This document shows positions 3,010 to 46,337 of a stretch of 46,337 bases of DNA, piece by piece. This DNA is from a virus, in IMG/VR virus record IMGVR_UViG_3300042923_000541, positions 1 to 46,337 of that record; one strand, 5' to 3'. The notes beneath the pieces are model-generated. The model had not been told where the DNA came from. It ran no database searches and was given only the letters and a program-made list of their open reading frames with translations. A program made the translations under genes and the position numbers. How positions within the stretch are numbered: the stretch's first letter is position 1; every line of letters starts with the position of its first letter.

Positions 3010-3879
3010 ATGGCCGAAAATCATGAGTTAGCGTTGCGCGACTATATCTTGGGCATGAAGTACCGGGAGATAGCCGATAAATATAACGTATCAATCGACA
3101 CTGTAAAGTCATGGAAAAAGCGTCATAGATGGGAGCGCGATAAACCCGTTAAAAAGAGTGCACACAATGCACCCAAAAATAAAAGTGTGTGCACCCAAAC
3201 TAAAACGGCGCAACTCCCTGAATCCGACGAGGAGCTAAACGACAAAGAGCAGATGTTCTGCTATCACTACGTCCGGACGTGGAACGCCACACAGGCCGCG
3301 CTCAAATCCGGCTACACTCAGAATAAGGATTCCGCCAAGGTTCGTGGCTGTTTGCTTATGCGGAAACCTAAGGTAAAGCAGGAAATAGAGAGGCTGCGGA
3401 CGCTGTTCCGCCAGGACATTCACCTTGATATTCAGGACTTCTTGGAATTCTGCATGAGGATCATTGGCGCTGACATTGGCGACTATGTGGCATGGGGGAG
3501 GCGCCAGCAGCAAGTTATTGGCATGTATGGGCCAGTGACAACCGAAGATGACGACGGGAATAGTTCGCCTGTCATGGAAACGGTAAACTTCGTTGATTTT
3601 GGCGAAAGTGAGCAACTGGATACCTCCGTTATATCCGAGGTCAAGCAAGGAAAAGATGGCATATCGATCAAGCTCGCCGATAAGAAATGGGCATGGGAGC
3701 AACTGAACAAGTACTTCGACTGGTTGCCGGATAAGTGGCAGCGGAATCTTGAAGCGGATAAGTTGGGTCTTGAGCGGCGCAAGGTTGAGGCGTTGGAGAA
3801 GAAGGTCGACAATGAGGGTGACGTGACTGATCCCCCGCAATTCATTGACGACATTGAAGGTGATGAAGATGAAAGTTAA
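3010..3879 (+). CDS. terS: Terminase small subunit
   Basis: A 289-residue protein that should recognise the packaging start and recruit the large subunit. Residues 8-40 form a helix-turn-helix (YREIADKYNVS followed by TVKSWKKRH), as in the PBSX/SPP1-type small subunits. Residues 75-140 match the terminase small subunit core (D-K-E-Q-M-F-C-Y-H-Y, N-A-T-Q-A-A-L-K-S-G-Y, K-P-K-V-K-Q-E-I). The C-terminus is acidic and probably contacts TerL. GGGAGGTGG lies upstream. Its end overlaps the start of terL. Confidence 0.85.
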   Translation: MAENHELALRDYILGMKYREIADKYNVSIDTVKSWKKRHRWERDKPVKKSAHNAPKNKSVCTQTKTAQLPESDEELNDKEQMFCYHYVRTWNATQAALKSGYTQNKDSAKVRGCLLMRKPKVKQEIERLRTLFRQDIHLDIQDFLEFCMRIIGADIGDYVAWGRRQQQVIGMYGPVTTEDDDGNSSPVMETVNFVDFGESEQLDTSVISEVKQGKDGISIKLADKKWAWEQLNKYFDWLPDKWQRNLEADKLGLERRKVEALEKKVDNEGDVTDPPQFIDDIEGDEDES

Positions 3880-14567: not shown

Positions 14568-14568
14568 C

Positions 14569-14586
14569 GCTTCCTTTTATTTTGGG
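14569..14586. repeat. 18-bp inverted repeat, left arm
   Basis: GCTTCCTTTTATTTTGGG, the exact reverse complement of 14772-14789. The two arms enclose the promoter and gene of the Arc-like repressor. Confidence 0.85.
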
Positions 14587-14594
14587 AATCCCTC

Positions 14595-14627
14595 TTGACA
14601 ATATATAATGTAATGTTGTAATATTGT
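14595..14627 (+). promoter_or_regulatory. Promoter and operator of the Arc-like gene
   Basis: A perfect TTGACA (14595-14600), 18-base spacer and TAATAT (14619-14624). Overlapping it are ACAATAT (14598-14604) and its inverse ATATTGT (14621-14627), a likely operator for the repressor encoded at 14644. Confidence 0.75.
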
Positions 14628-14643
14628 ATCAAGGAGGGATGTA

Positions 14644-14781
14644 ATGGAAAAAACCATCAATTTCAAGGTTGATGAAGATTTTTATAAGCAGATAAAAGTA
14701 AAAATAGCCTTGGAGGGAATTACCCTCAAAGACTATGTTATCTCACTTATAAAATCTGACCTGGAAAAATCCCCAAAATAA
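14644..14781 (+). CDS. Arc-like ribbon-helix-helix repressor
   Basis: A 45-residue protein from ATG 14644 behind AAGGAGGGATG. It has one beta-strand (T-I-N-F-K-V-D), a first helix (D-F-Y-K-Q-I-K-V-K-I-A-L-E) and a second helix beginning T-L-K-D-Y-V-I-S-L, the ribbon-helix-helix fold of Arc/CopG repressors. It has its own strong promoter with an inverted repeat, so autorepression is likely. It stands at the head of the antirepressor cassette within the tail operon, as arc does in P22. Confidence 0.78.
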   Translation: MEKTINFKVDEDFYKQIKVKIALEGITLKDYVISLIKSDLEKSPK

Positions 14782-14789
14782 AAGGAAGC
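14772..14789. repeat. 18-bp inverted repeat, right arm
   Basis: CCCAAAATAAAAGGAAGC. It contains the stop codon of the Arc-like gene and, on the minus strand, the T-rich tail of the predicted antisense RNA terminator. Confidence 0.85.
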
Positions 14790-14851
14790 CCGTTTCAAGT
14801 TTGCCCACCTGACGGACTTCCAATCCCGCAAACCTCAGAAGAGGCTTACTT
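14777..14851 (-). ncRNA. Predicted antisense RNA (sar-like)
   Basis: Minus-strand promoter TTGCAG (14882-14887), 18-base spacer, TATACT (14858-14863), giving a start near 14851. About 40 bases on, GGAAGTCCGT (14821-14812) pairs with ACGGGCTTCC (14793-14784), one mismatch, followed by TTTTATTTT. The RNA would be about 75 nt, carry no reading frame, and be antisense to the gap between the Arc-like gene and the mini-protein genes. In P22, sar (about 68 nt) lies in the matching arc-ant gap and blocks ant. Prediction only. Confidence 0.55.
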
Positions 14852-14887
14852 GCTATAAGTATAGCATGTTTTACCCTCTATCTGCAA
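14851..14887 (-). promoter_or_regulatory. Promoter of the antisense RNA with palindromic operator
   Basis: TTGCAG-18-TATACT on the minus strand. The -10 is embedded in the perfect 16-bp palindrome TGCTATAAGTATAGCA (14851-14866), suitable for a dimeric repressor. Confidence 0.6.
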
Positions 14888-14912
14888 GGTTTAGCATGAT
14901 GGAGGTATTTTT

Positions 14913-15029
14913 ATGACCAAAACAGCTATTCCCGAATACAAATCGCTGGTTGAAATCATGGCGCGCCTCTGGTTGTTGGATGTAATGTCTGAAATGAAGC
15001 GCGAAAAAGAGGCAGGTGCTACATTATGA
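14913..15029 (+). CDS. Mini-protein A of the antirepressor cassette
   Basis: A 38-residue helical protein from ATG 14913 with a strong GGAGGT ribosome site. Its tail E-M-K-R-E-K-E-A-G-A-T-L resembles the tail of the next gene (E-I-V-E-E-K-K-A-G-A-V-I), so the two look like tandem relatives. Stop and next start overlap by four bases (ATGA). Function unknown. Confidence 0.55.
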   Translation: MTKTAIPEYKSLVEIMARLWLLDVMSEMKREKEAGATL

Positions 15030-15118
15030 CCAGAAACGATGACCTGCTGTTAGATTTAGTCGTCTTAATGATTCTTCAAGAGATTGTCGAAGAAAAGAAA
15101 GCAGGCGCAGTCATATGA
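15026..15118 (+). CDS. Mini-protein A' of the antirepressor cassette
   Basis: A 30-residue protein from ATG 15026, overlapping the preceding stop, with the AGGCAGG-type ribosome site inside the upstream gene. Shares the charged KKAGA-type tail with mini-protein A. A hydrophobic centre (L-L-L-D-L-V-V-L-M-I-L) could be a buried helix. Overlaps the next start by four bases. Confidence 0.5.
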   Translation: MTRNDDLLLDLVVLMILQEIVEEKKAGAVI

Positions 15119-15231
15119 GCAATGTAACATTCGATAATTTGCAAGGTTTTTTCAAATGGGTGAAGTTCACCGATGGTACATACATTGTTGACCCGGCATA
15201 TGTGGACGAATGGAGGCAGGAGCATGAATGA
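15115..15231 (+). CDS. Mini-protein B of the antirepressor cassette
   Basis: A 38-residue protein from ATG 15115. The segment F-K-W-V-K-F-T-D-G-T-Y-I-V-D-P-A-Y-V-D-E-W is clearly repeated in the next gene (A-K-W-I-E-I-E-D-G-R-Y-I-I-D-P-K-Y-L-N-E-W), so B and B' are duplicates. The D-G-x-Y-I-[IV]-D-P core is unfamiliar. Function unknown. Confidence 0.55.
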   Translation: MSNVTFDNLQGFFKWVKFTDGTYIVDPAYVDEWRQEHE

Positions 15232-15364
15232 CATGCTAATCATCGAAAGCCTTAACGGACTAGCGAAGTGGATAGAAATTGAGGATGGCAGGTATATTAT
15301 TGACCCTAAATATTTAAATGAATGGAGGTTTAAAAATGAGCAATCAACTACAAAAGGTATTTGA
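15224..15364 (+). CDS. Mini-protein B' of the antirepressor cassette
   Basis: A 46-residue homologue of mini-protein B from ATG 15224, with GGAGGCAGG upstream. It overlaps the antirepressor start by 29 bases, so translation of the two is probably linked. Confidence 0.55.
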   Translation: MNDMLIIESLNGLAKWIEIEDGRYIIDPKYLNEWRFKNEQSTTKGI

Positions 15365-16130
15365 GTATCAGGGCAATGCAGTTAGAACGGTAACGGTTGA
15401 AGGCGCTCCTTGGTTTGTGGCTAAAGACGTGTGTGATATTTTGGAACATAGCAATAGCCGAATGGCTCTTGATCGCTTAGATGATGACGAAAAGGGTGTA
15501 AGCTCAATTGACACCCTTGGCGGAAACCAGGAAGTTCAAGTCGTTAATGAGCCCGGCCTATACAACCTCGTTCTAGGAAGCCGCAAACCTGAAGCGAAAG
15601 CATTCAAACGTTGGGTAACACACGAGGTATTGCCGGCTATTCGCAGGCACGGAATGTATGCAGTAGAGGAACTGCTTGACAATCCCGACTTGATGATCAA
15701 AACATTTACGGCTCTAAAGGAAGAACGCGAGAAAACAAAACGCCTTGAACTCCAAAGTGCTCAACAATCGCAAATAATTAATGAGTTATCTCCGAAGGCT
15801 ACTTATTACGATCTAGTCCTACAGAACAAGTCTTTGCTGGCAATAACTAAAATAGCGAAGGATTACGGTATGTCAGGGACTGCTCTGAATGCATTGCTCC
15901 ATGAGTTGAGCATCCAGTATAAGCAAGGCGATGTGTGGCTTTTGTATCAGAAATATGCTGACAAAGGATACACTCAGAGCAAAACACACGTGATTGACGA
16001 CGAGCGGAACAAGTTCCATACTTATTGGACGCAGAAAGGAAGGTTATTTATTTACGATCTTCTTAAAGGCAAGAAGGGTATATTGCCTCTTATCGAACGC
16101 GAAGGCTTGCGTCTAGTAGCGAATAAATAG
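15336..16130 (+). CDS. Phage antirepressor (BRO-N plus KilAC)
   Basis: A 264-residue protein from ATG 15336 with TGGAGG upstream. Residues 1-110 form a BRO-N/P22 AntA-type domain (W-F-V-A-K-D-V-C-D-I-L-E-H, D-D-D-E-K-G-V, N-E-P-G-L-Y-N-L-V-L-G-S-R-K-P-E-A-K-A-F-K-R-W-V). Residues about 140-260 are a KilAC/ANT domain (A-K-D-Y-G-M-S-G-T-A-L-N-A-L-L, W-T-Q-K-G-R-L-F-I-Y). Such proteins inactivate a repressor to permit induction. The gene is downstream of the Arc-like repressor and followed by a terminator. Confidence 0.9.
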   Translation: MSNQLQKVFEYQGNAVRTVTVEGAPWFVAKDVCDILEHSNSRMALDRLDDDEKGVSSIDTLGGNQEVQVVNEPGLYNLVLGSRKPEAKAFKRWVTHEVLPAIRRHGMYAVEELLDNPDLMIKTFTALKEEREKTKRLELQSAQQSQIINELSPKATYYDLVLQNKSLLAITKIAKDYGMSGTALNALLHELSIQYKQGDVWLLYQKYADKGYTQSKTHVIDDERNKFHTYWTQKGRLFIYDLLKGKKGILPLIEREGLRLVANK

Positions 16131-16143
16131 AAGGGGAGCAATT

Positions 16144-16165
16144 GGAGCCGAAAGGCTCCTTTTTG
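16144..16165 (+). terminator. Terminator of the antirepressor cassette
   Basis: GGAGCC-GAAA-GGCTCC followed by six T, a compact strong terminator with a GNRA loop. Confidence 0.85.
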
Positions 16166-16195
16166 TTGGAGATTATAGTCGGAGGTGGTTGAATA

Positions 16196-16204
16196 TGGTA
16201 TAAT
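16196..16204 (+). promoter_or_regulatory. Extended -10 promoter of the secreted protein gene
   Basis: TGGTATAAT with a perfect -10 hexamer (16199-16204) and TGn extension but no clear -35. It lies about 25 bases upstream of the start codon at 16230. Confidence 0.6.
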
Positions 16205-16229
16205 GATGGCAAAAAAGGAGTGACATGCT

Positions 16230-16682
16230 TTGGGGAAATATATTAAATCGACAATTGGGAAACTGCTCATTGTTGTTACTATTTTGTTTTTCCCGGGAAT
16301 TTCATCTGCTGAGTGGGTCGAGGTTAAAACCGCGAATCCAGAATTCAAGTTTTTATTTGAATCGGATACCATCCAGCAATTTACACTCCAGCCAACAAAC
16401 TACAAGGTTAAAATTAAGCATACCTTTTCTCCGGAATTTGCGAAGAAACAGCAAGACGTGTGGTCAAAGGTTGCCACTATGGAAAGTACGAATGAATTTA
16501 GCATTAACGAAAGCATTGCCAGATTGTTGTCGTTTGCCGCTTTCGACGAGAACGGCGAATGGGTGACAGGAGATACGCGAGGCGATAAATGGAAAAAATA
16601 TAATAATCAATCTCCCTATGGGGTTATAGAAAAATACATCCGAGAAAACAAAGAAACGATTGACGCAAGGCCGAAATATTAA
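16230..16682 (+). CDS. Secreted protein with signal peptide, unknown function
   Basis: A 150-residue protein from TTG 16230, with AAAGGAGTG upstream. Residues 1-27 are a signal peptide: basic start, hydrophobic core, cleavage likely after S-S-A-27. The mature part is a small globular domain with no cysteines or known motif. It has its own extended -10 promoter and a terminator behind it, the hallmark of an independently expressed lysogeny gene inserted in the tail operon. Surface exclusion or envelope modification would fit but is inference. Confidence 0.7.
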   Translation: MGKYIKSTIGKLLIVVTILFFPGISSAEWVEVKTANPEFKFLFESDTIQQFTLQPTNYKVKIKHTFSPEFAKKQQDVWSKVATMESTNEFSINESIARLLSFAAFDENGEWVTGDTRGDKWKKYNNQSPYGVIEKYIRENKETIDARPKY

Positions 16683-16686
16683 GTAC

Positions 16687-16712
16687 AAACCCGCCTAATG
16701 GCGGGTTTCTTT
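16687..16712 (+). terminator. Terminator before the tape measure gene
   Basis: AAACCCGCC (16687-16695) pairs with GGCGGGTTT (16700-16708) around TAAT, followed by CTTTATGCCC and the ribosome site of the tape measure gene. Confidence 0.75.
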
Positions 16713-16739
16713 ATGCCCTTTAGAAAGGAGATGTGATAC

Positions 16740-28813: not shown

Positions 28814-29626
28814 ATGAAACCGATCTGGAAAGGCATGTTATCATTCGGCCTCATTAATGTTCCGGTCTCCTTGTGCAGCGCGACTAAAAAGAAAACGGTC
28901 AGCTTTAACCAACTCCGTAAATCTGATTACAGCCGAATTCGATACAAAAAGGTCGGCAACGATGATCAGGAAGTACAGCAAAGCGAGATCGTAAAAGGCT
29001 ATGAAATATCCCTGGATAGATACGTCGTTATTACTGACGCTGAACTGGCGACGATAACGCCGGCTGCCAGTCGTGTAATTGAAATATCGGACTTTGTGAA
29101 GCTTGAACAGATAGATCCACGGCACTATGATGCGTCGTACTATCTCGTGCCCGAAAAAGGCATGGCTAAAGCGTACACGTTGCTGCTCGAAGCCATGCGA
29201 GAATCAAATGTAGTTGGGATAGCTAAGTTCGTAATTCGCAGCAAAGAATACCTCGCGGCGATTAGGCCGGCGGAGGGAGCGCTAACACTATCCACGATGC
29301 TGTTCGCAGATGAAATAATTAACTCCAGCGAATTGGACGCCTATCTGCCTAAAGATGTAAAACCATCCGATAAGGAAATGAATATGGCCCGGCAGTTAAT
29401 CCAGGCTCTGGTGACAGATTTCGATCCCGGCAAATACGTAAACGAGTATCACGAGCAAGTCATGAAGCTCATTGACGCCAAAGCCGAGACTGCAATCCAG
29501 GCCGTAGAAATACCTCATGGCAGCGGATCCGTACTTGACCTTATGTCCGCGTTGGAGGCCAGCATGAAGGCACTGGCGCCGAAGCCTAAAGAGAAGAAGC
29601 CAAGAAAGAAAGCATCTGGCGCATGA
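28814..29626 (+). CDS. ku: Non-homologous end-joining protein Ku
   Basis: A 270-residue Ku homologue from ATG 28814 with AGGGGGTGAT upstream. It has the bacterial Ku start W-K-G-M-L-S-F-G-L-I-N-V-P-V-S-L, I-R-Y-K-K near residue 43, V-K-G-Y-E-I-S-L-D-R-Y-V-V-I near residue 59, the Y-Y-L-V-P-E-K core and I-R-S-K-E-Y-L-A-A-I-R. The tail is Lys-rich, as in host Ku. It rings onto DNA ends and recruits LigD; no ligase gene is in this genome, so host LigD would be required. Mycobacteriophages Omega and Corndog also encode Ku. Confidence 0.93.
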   Translation: MKPIWKGMLSFGLINVPVSLCSATKKKTVSFNQLRKSDYSRIRYKKVGNDDQEVQQSEIVKGYEISLDRYVVITDAELATITPAASRVIEISDFVKLEQIDPRHYDASYYLVPEKGMAKAYTLLLEAMRESNVVGIAKFVIRSKEYLAAIRPAEGALTLSTMLFADEIINSSELDAYLPKDVKPSDKEMNMARQLIQALVTDFDPGKYVNEYHEQVMKLIDAKAETAIQAVEIPHGSGSVLDLMSALEASMKALAPKPKEKKPRKKASGA

Positions 29627-33742: not shown

Positions 33743-34096
33743 TTACTCTTCTCCATTATCTGGAATAGATAACTCGATAATTTTAGCAATGCGGCGGCGT
33801 TCGGCTTCGGTTGGACGCCGCCCGGCGCGACGAAGAACACGGGTTACTTCGGGCCATATTTGCTCAATGGATTCTTCTTGCTGGTTATTTACATTTTTAA
33901 CGTCCCCTAGAAGATAATCAGTAGTTACGCCATAAATTTTAGCAAGATCATTTAATATCGTGGTATCCGGGTCCCGTTCGTTCCGTTCATAGTTAGAGAG
34001 GGATTGGCTGGTAACTCCTAACAACTTAGCCACATATACTTGGGACATCCCCTTATTCTCTCTAGCCCGTTTTAATCTTTCGCCAAGAGTTTTCAT
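33743..34096 (-). CDS. CI-like repressor, HTH_3 (Xre) family
   Basis: A 117-residue protein from ATG 34096 behind AGGAGGTG. Residues 5-60 form an Xre-type helix-turn-helix (L-K-R-A-R-E-N-K-G-M-S-Q-V-Y-V-A-K-L-L-G-V-T-S-Q-S-L-S-N-Y-E) with the typical Y-G-V-T-T-D-Y-L-L-G end. No peptidase domain, so inactivation probably depends on ImmA rather than RecA. It should bind the operators at 34193-34246 and 34446-34462. Confidence 0.9.
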   Translation of the reverse strand: MKTLGERLKRARENKGMSQVYVAKLLGVTSQSLSNYERNERDPDTTILNDLAKIYGVTTDYLLGDVKNVNNQQEESIEQIWPEVTRVLRRAGRRPTEAERRRIAKIIELSIPDNGEE

Positions 34097-34120
34097 TATC
34101 AACTTCACCTCCTAAATCAC

Positions 34121-46045: not shown

Positions 46046-46337
46046 TGAGTAGAATCACACCAAACGTTCACGAACTAAAAACCGACCCAGAAGTATTCGA
46101 GGCGGTTTATAACGGAGATAAAACCTATGAAATCAGGTTCAACGATAGGGATTATCAGTCTGGCGACATTTTGATTCTTAAAGAGACTGAGTTCTCGGTG
46201 CAAGAAATGAAATCAGGAAAGCAGTTAAAGTACACGGGAAGAAAATGTGAATCGGTTGTCACTCATGTACTTAAAGGACCAATGTACGGGTTGCTTGACG
46301 GATGGGTGATATTGTCCATTATCGTTTTAGAGAGGGA
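46045..46337 (+). CDS. DUF3850-type protein, N-terminal part
   Basis: The gene starts at ATG 46045 with AAAGGAGAG upstream and runs off the contig. Joined to 3-179 through the 127-base repeat it gives 114 residues (M-S-R-I-T-P-N-V-H-E-L-K start; E-I-R-F-N-D-R-D-Y-Q-S-G-D-I-L-I-L-K). DUF3850 has a PUA/ASCH-like fold. Confidence 0.88.
   Translation, partial: MSRITPNVHELKTDPEVFEAVYNGDKTYEIRFNDRDYQSGDILILKETEFSVQEMKSGKQLKYTGRKCESVVTHVLKGPMYGLLDGWVILSIIVLER
46211..46337. repeat. Contig-end direct repeat, right copy
   Basis: Right-hand copy of the 127-base repeat at 1-127, read in the same frame of the DUF3850-type gene. Joining the copies restores a 114-residue gene. Confidence 0.95.

Follow-up and report, generated by a model that had tools for sequence, protein, structure and literature searches.

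A probable secondary immunity cassette with a predicted antisense-RNA leader switch in the tail operon of a relative of Sporomusaceae prophages

The tail operon of the phage analyzed here carries an inserted block in which a ribbon-helix-helix (RHH) gene, a convergent promoter with a predicted antisense RNA, four mini-ORFs and a Bro-N/KilAC antirepressor gene are found together, and we consider it probable that the block is a secondary immunity cassette, inserted in a late operon, in which RHH autorepression is combined with an antisense-RNA leader switch. The source is IMG/VR virus record IMGVR_UViG_3300042923_000541, and the window, i.e., the whole stretch of DNA that was analyzed, is the entire record of 46,337 nt. 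Bases 1-127 and 46211-46337 are identical, so the genome is probably closed or end-redundant. The gene content includes terminase, portal, capsid, contractile-tail, baseplate, integrase, CI-like repressor, IrrE/ImmA-like peptidase and replication genes. Among the prophages found in genomes, the nearest lies in a Sporomusaceae MAG, with 85% identity across most of the sheath protein, and on sequence similarity the window phage is related to Sporomusaceae prophages. A gene for a Ku-like DNA end-binding protein was also observed at 28814-29626 (PHROG 4873, 4.5e-57).

The inserted block and its relatives

The cassette is flanked by a tail chaperone gene (PF21822) and the tape measure gene (PF20155), both identified by profile match. 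The block is absent from L019 and L018, two related prophages whose chaperone ORF nearly abuts the tape measure, and 14568-16739 is therefore an insertion. The promoter, convergent antisense promoter, mini-proteins, Bro-N/KilAC antirepressor, terminator and chaperone/tape measure flanks listed in the initial annotation are all present; its placement of the block is confirmed as well, while the end it gave, 16165, has to be moved to about 16739 in order to include a second cargo gene. The parts of the block, together with two genes elsewhere in the window, are as follows (L010 is the locus of a close relative):

about 14568 to 16739: whole inserted block, tail chaperone ORF 2 to tape measure, missing from L019 and L018
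14569 to 14589, plus strand: left arm (21 nt) of an inverted repeat flanking the RHH gene; its 95% complementary right arm is at 14769-14789
14595 to 14627, plus strand: promoter TTGACA-18-TAATAT and likely RHH operator (putative binding)
14644 to 14781, plus strand: RHH protein, 45 aa, from profile matches and conservation; likely autorepressor
14913 to 15029, plus strand: mini-ORF 1, 38 aa, 79% identical in L010
15026 to 15118, plus strand: mini-ORF 2, 30 aa, 57% identical in L010
15115 to 15231, plus strand: mini-ORF 3, 38 aa, 95% identical in L010
15224 to 15364, plus strand: mini-ORF 4, 46 aa, related to mini-ORF 3
15336 to 16130, plus strand: antirepressor, Bro-N plus KilAC, 264 aa
16144 to 16164, plus strand: intrinsic terminator 3' of the antirepressor
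16230 to 16682, plus strand: second cargo gene; its 150-aa product has a signal-like N-terminus and is 98% identical in L010
32777 to 33709, minus strand: IrrE/ImmA-like M78 peptidase adjoining CI
33743 to 34108, minus strand: CI-like HTH_3 repressor, candidate target of the antirepressor

The first gene had been called Arc-like, and this description is right as to the fold class and wrong as to the family: the ORF is an RHH gene (3e-12 to PHROG 37719, with weak Pfam scores to NikA-like, Omega and ParD), and it gave no match to Pfam Arc (PF03869), which P22 Arc itself matches at 5e-31. The RHH protein is 98% identical to that of the window in L010 and 88% in L016. Its promoter, of which the TTGACA-18-TAATAT core spans 14595-14624, is conserved in both, the core being almost unchanged in L016, an unrelated phage. 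The left arm of the inverted repeat (14569-14589) duplicates the terminator tail of the antisense RNA; late read-through transcripts would contain this arm and RHH-promoter transcripts would lack it. The four mini-ORFs, starting at 14913, 15026, 15115 and 15224, overlap head to tail and match no family, and the antirepressor domains are clear (Bro-N 6e-26, 91 bits; KilAC 5e-33, 114 bits; curated cut-offs near 25).

The second cargo gene has, as read from the sequence, its own -10 element (TATAAT, 16199-16204) and its own terminator (16690-16705), and its product, which had no family match in Pfam and PHROG profile searches, is a candidate for lysogenic conversion. Two intrinsic terminators (16144-16164 and 16690-16705) thus separate the tail chaperone from the tape measure and no obvious promoter was seen in the roughly 35 bases upstream of the tape measure, which means that late transcription has to pass them by read-through or antitermination.

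The same gene order was looked for in related prophages, as the initial annotation had proposed, and the block was found in L010 with the antirepressor swapped, and the module at a different place in L034. In L010 the RNA region and mini-ORFs 1-3 are near-identical to those of the window, and the antirepressor has only a short 36%-identical stretch in common with the window Ant. No homologue of the window CI was found in the phage record of L010 (G765); the HTH regulator of that phage shares only about 24% identity with it. L034 comes from a contractile phage that is only distantly related, its tail proteins being about 24% identical; the module sits there at another site among the tail genes, with a truncated RHH gene that has lost its promoter and N-terminus, and with the predicted antisense RNA kept. 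The RNA region and antisense promoter are thus retained in L010 and L034 despite diverged flanking coding sequence. L015-L017 have the RHH gene with its promoter and hairpin beside an integrase gene, and no antirepressor. No nucleotide relatives of the module were found in named phages and plasmids, and RHH searches of 380 host-class and 398 phylum genomes returned weak matches only, including L023 and L022, the latter an RHH gene without an adjoining antirepressor.

Three side observations were made in these relatives. The phage record of L010 contains two copies of the junction region of the window record. On the minus strand of L016, positions 3369-3606, adjoining the stand-alone RHH gene, match Rfam BsrG (type I toxin-antitoxin) just above the gathering score. 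A Bro-N/KilAC antirepressor in a head operon (L004, 5815-6621) has an L010-like N-terminus and a window-like KilAC end, and from this sequence pattern it is best described as a product of domain shuffling.

Predicted antisense RNA and the leader of mini-ORF 1

The elements on which the leader model is based are:

14858 to 14887, minus strand: antisense promoter TTGCAG-18-TATACT with extended -10 (TG-C-TATACT)
14776 to 14851, minus strand: predicted antisense RNA, about 75-76 nt, two hairpins (from fold, finder and conservation in L010 and L034)
14784 to 14821, minus strand: terminator stem of the RNA, with its U-tract at 14776-14783 and hairpin 1 at 14828-14849
14828 to 14844, plus strand: 5' arm of the leader, the target for hairpin 1 of the antisense RNA
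14875 to 14895, plus strand: leader 3' arm, of which 14875-14882 is the anti-Shine-Dalgarno
14898 to 14905, plus strand: Shine-Dalgarno of mini-ORF 1, GATGGAGG

The antisense promoter is modest when taken alone, as 34 of 500 shuffles reach its score; it is conserved in L010 and improved to the consensus TATAAT in L034. The fold of the predicted RNA is more stable than that of shuffled sequences in the window (z = -4.96), L010 (z = -3.4) and L034 (z = -5.3), and the terminator stem lies directly after the RHH stop, the RHH gene ending at 14781. According to this model, the convergent promoter should make an antisense RNA of about 75 nt ending at the RHH stop. The window region and nine loci gave no Rfam match (C4 included) up to E = 1, and membership in C4 or another Rfam family was rejected on this basis.

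The duplex between the 5' and 3' arms of the leader has a calculated energy of -19.5 kcal/mol, equalled by 9 of 2000 shuffles, and the pairing of anti-Shine-Dalgarno and Shine-Dalgarno is equalled by 6 of 2000. The 3' arm as a whole (14875-14895) can pair with the RNA target at 14828-14844, and its initial part, 14875-14882, with the Shine-Dalgarno at 14898-14905 as well. The distance from the RNA 5' end to the start codon is 61 nt for mini-ORF 1 in the window and 46-98 nt before the cargo start across loci. With such a gap the ribosome-binding site is out of reach of the RNA, unlike in the case of sar, and the effect of the RNA must go through leader structure. The predicted cost of opening the Shine-Dalgarno in the window rises from 4.9 kcal/mol in the free state, which is itself still a cost to be paid, to 11.8 kcal/mol with the RNA bound, the bound state being modelled solely by holding the target unpaired, as in the duplex.

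To see how this compares across loci, the same calculation covered 13 loci picked without regard to the switch property. The results showed a rise of 2.2-9.0 kcal/mol on RNA binding in 12 of the 13, and shuffling the arm-bearing segment abolished it (0-2 of 100 shuffles gave as large a rise in each of the 12), whereas L034 showed no rise and fails in comparison to shuffles (43 of 100). The Fisher p against shuffles for Shine-Dalgarno closing in the 12 of 13 loci is about 2e-12, a value that is optimistic because some of the loci are related (window and L034; a Negativicutes set; a set sharing a GRPKADNPK RHH). L016 was rejected as a switch case and excluded from these statistics; its sense hairpin followed by seven T is terminator-like and is closed in both states. 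Both arms are unchanged in the window, L010 and L034, so covariation within this lineage is uninformative. For three related Negativicutes leaders the alignment misregistered one sequence and pair counts were not taken; a single C-G to U-A double change, seen on visual inspection, is in favour of the stem.

In the mechanism we propose, the RHH protein would bind its own promoter and keep the transcript of RHH gene, mini-ORFs and antirepressor low, and the convergent promoter would give the antisense RNA of about 75 nt reaching the RHH stop codon. Pairing of this RNA with the leader target would release the downstream arm, which would then close the Shine-Dalgarno of mini-ORF 1. Translation of the antirepressor should drop along with that of mini-ORF 1, given the head-to-tail overlap of the small ORFs, control passing from the first start codon to ant by presumed translational coupling. 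In a lysogen, RHH autorepression and the antisense RNA would together silence the antirepressor; upon entry into a cell short of the RHH protein and RNA, or in a disturbed prophage, brief antirepressor synthesis might follow and inactivate a CI-type repressor, either the phage's own or that of a resident prophage, as its likely target.

Recurrence outside the lineage and competing explanations

The same layout was observed in eleven loci outside the window lineage (L051, L059, L023, L070, L071, L081, L110, L137, L144, L146 and L147), and in most loci no more than a few nt separate the terminator edge from the RHH stop. L051 combines an RHH gene with an ORF6N antirepressor in a head operon, and L059 a different RHH gene with an ORF6N antirepressor directly 3' of tail chaperone genes. 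The upstream gene is not recognisably RHH in L071 and is without family match in L081, and L144, L146 and L147 carry, in place of an antirepressor, a small ORF or a DUF6809 protein as cargo. The arrangement is often found in late genes: head operons hold L051, L110, L137 and L147, and tail operons the window, L010, L034 and L059; L081 lies before terminase, and L070 and L071 after tail-fibre/lysis genes. An automatic antisense-RNA finder, whose sole requirements were a terminator hairpin and, 50-120 nt upstream, a promoter, gave 7 minus-strand matches (two of them, L078 and L100, doubtful) in comparison to 1 plus-strand match among 69 Bro-N/ORF6N antirepressor loci from genomes, and these counts are lower bounds because P22 sar was missed by the finder. 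Antirepressor relatives in named phages, e.g., Javan235 and Tripp, gave no finder match, which together with the 7 of 69 indicates that the arrangement is a minority form. Whether the loci represent a widespread, undescribed class of Firmicute-phage late-operon cassettes, in which RHH protein and a ~75-nt RNA would silence any cargo (antirepressors of several families, DUF6809 proteins, small ORFs) by an anti-Shine-Dalgarno hand-over, is in our judgement evenly balanced.

The antisense promoter could instead act by transcription interference, or by simple pairing and leader degradation, the Shine-Dalgarno switch being incidental. The convergent promoters do face each other over the RHH gene, simple pairing is enough for P22 sar, and L034 retains the RNA and not the switch; we nevertheless regard this explanation as rather unlikely, as the 3' arm is complementary to both target and Shine-Dalgarno, beyond shuffles, in 12 of 13 sequence-diverse loci. 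It is very unlikely that the hairpin after the RHH gene is a sense-strand element for stability or attenuation, with no antisense RNA made, given that the U-tract is on the minus strand only, that a strong minus-strand promoter stands at a fixed distance in unrelated loci, and that the minus strand gives the more stable hairpin in 13 of 15 loci, a bias that is partly a selection effect for finder-derived loci; L016, where RHH gene and hairpin lack an antirepressor and are followed by the sense terminator-like hairpin, would suit such an element. The least probable explanation, again very unlikely, is an RHH-type toxin-antitoxin or addiction cassette with one mini-protein as toxin and the antirepressor as passenger: the antirepressor is the sole downstream gene in most loci, where mini-ORFs are missing or different, and those of the window gave no family match, even though the RHH scores are antitoxin-like (ParD), the small ORFs are hydrophobic, and cassettes of RHH and RNA with other cargo exist (L144, L146 and L147). 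The autorepression and leader-switch model thus remains our preferred one, and its leader switch is a concrete, mutable prediction.

Comparison with P22 immI and other antirepressor regions

Antisense RNAs repress antirepressor synthesis in P22 and, as a 77-nt RNA, in P1 and P7 (PMC12197685). In the P22 annotation, sar is at 15021-15090 on the minus strand and arc ends at 15022. Like P22 immI, the window cassette has an RHH repressor gene, a predicted convergent two-hairpin antisense RNA of about 70 nt ending at the RHH stop, an antirepressor and a terminator in this order, and it too sits among late genes. The differences are that the window RHH protein is not of the Arc family, that its Ant is Bro-N/KilAC in comparison to P22_AR_N/C (PF10547/PF10548) in P22, that the gap between RNA and start codon is about 60 nt and not zero, and that four mini-ORFs lie between the RNA region and ant. 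No divergent gene or promoter corresponding to mnt was found; upstream lies the same-strand tail chaperone ORF, and the minus strand is without a candidate. Of the P22 immI plan, to which the initial annotation had likened the block, the order, predicted convergent RNA, late site and exchangeable Ant are borne out, and Mnt, the Arc and P22_AR families and RNA cover of the ribosome-binding site are not, for which reason the cassette is not filed as an immI member. The predicted leader switch would be a step new relative to P22 sar.

The initial annotation had left convergence and exchange side by side; unrelated parts in the same order speak for convergence rather than direct exchange with P22, and such sequence comparisons point to a P22-like order that arose by convergence. 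To our knowledge, P22 immI has so far been a textbook singularity of enteric phages. With an immI-type circuit built from unrelated proteins and RNAs in several structural slots of Firmicute phages, a repressor plus an antisense RNA appears to have been chosen repeatedly for silencing late-operon antirepressors, which suggests that it is a recurrent solution for keeping an antirepressor silent in a late operon. Because Ant is exchanged against a fixed regulatory half, it can be asked which repressor each Ant defeats.

A search of the open-access literature did not turn up any account of cassettes of this kind in phages of Firmicutes, which is weak evidence with subscription papers outside its scope. 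The Firmicute cro-ant operons (Javan235, Tripp, NatCom_2329) have homologous Bro-N/KilAC antirepressors, but in Javan235 and Tripp these are early-region genes close to CI, and the finder saw no antisense RNA there. In the immI region of P1/P7 (c4, icd, ant), a small leader ORF is coupled to ant and the block is structure-mediated. The c4 RNA is cut from the same transcript and does not come from a convergent promoter, whereas the window RNA, which has no Rfam match, is predicted to start from one; both regions have small leader ORFs and, in the window as a prediction, an antisense RNA against the antirepressor.
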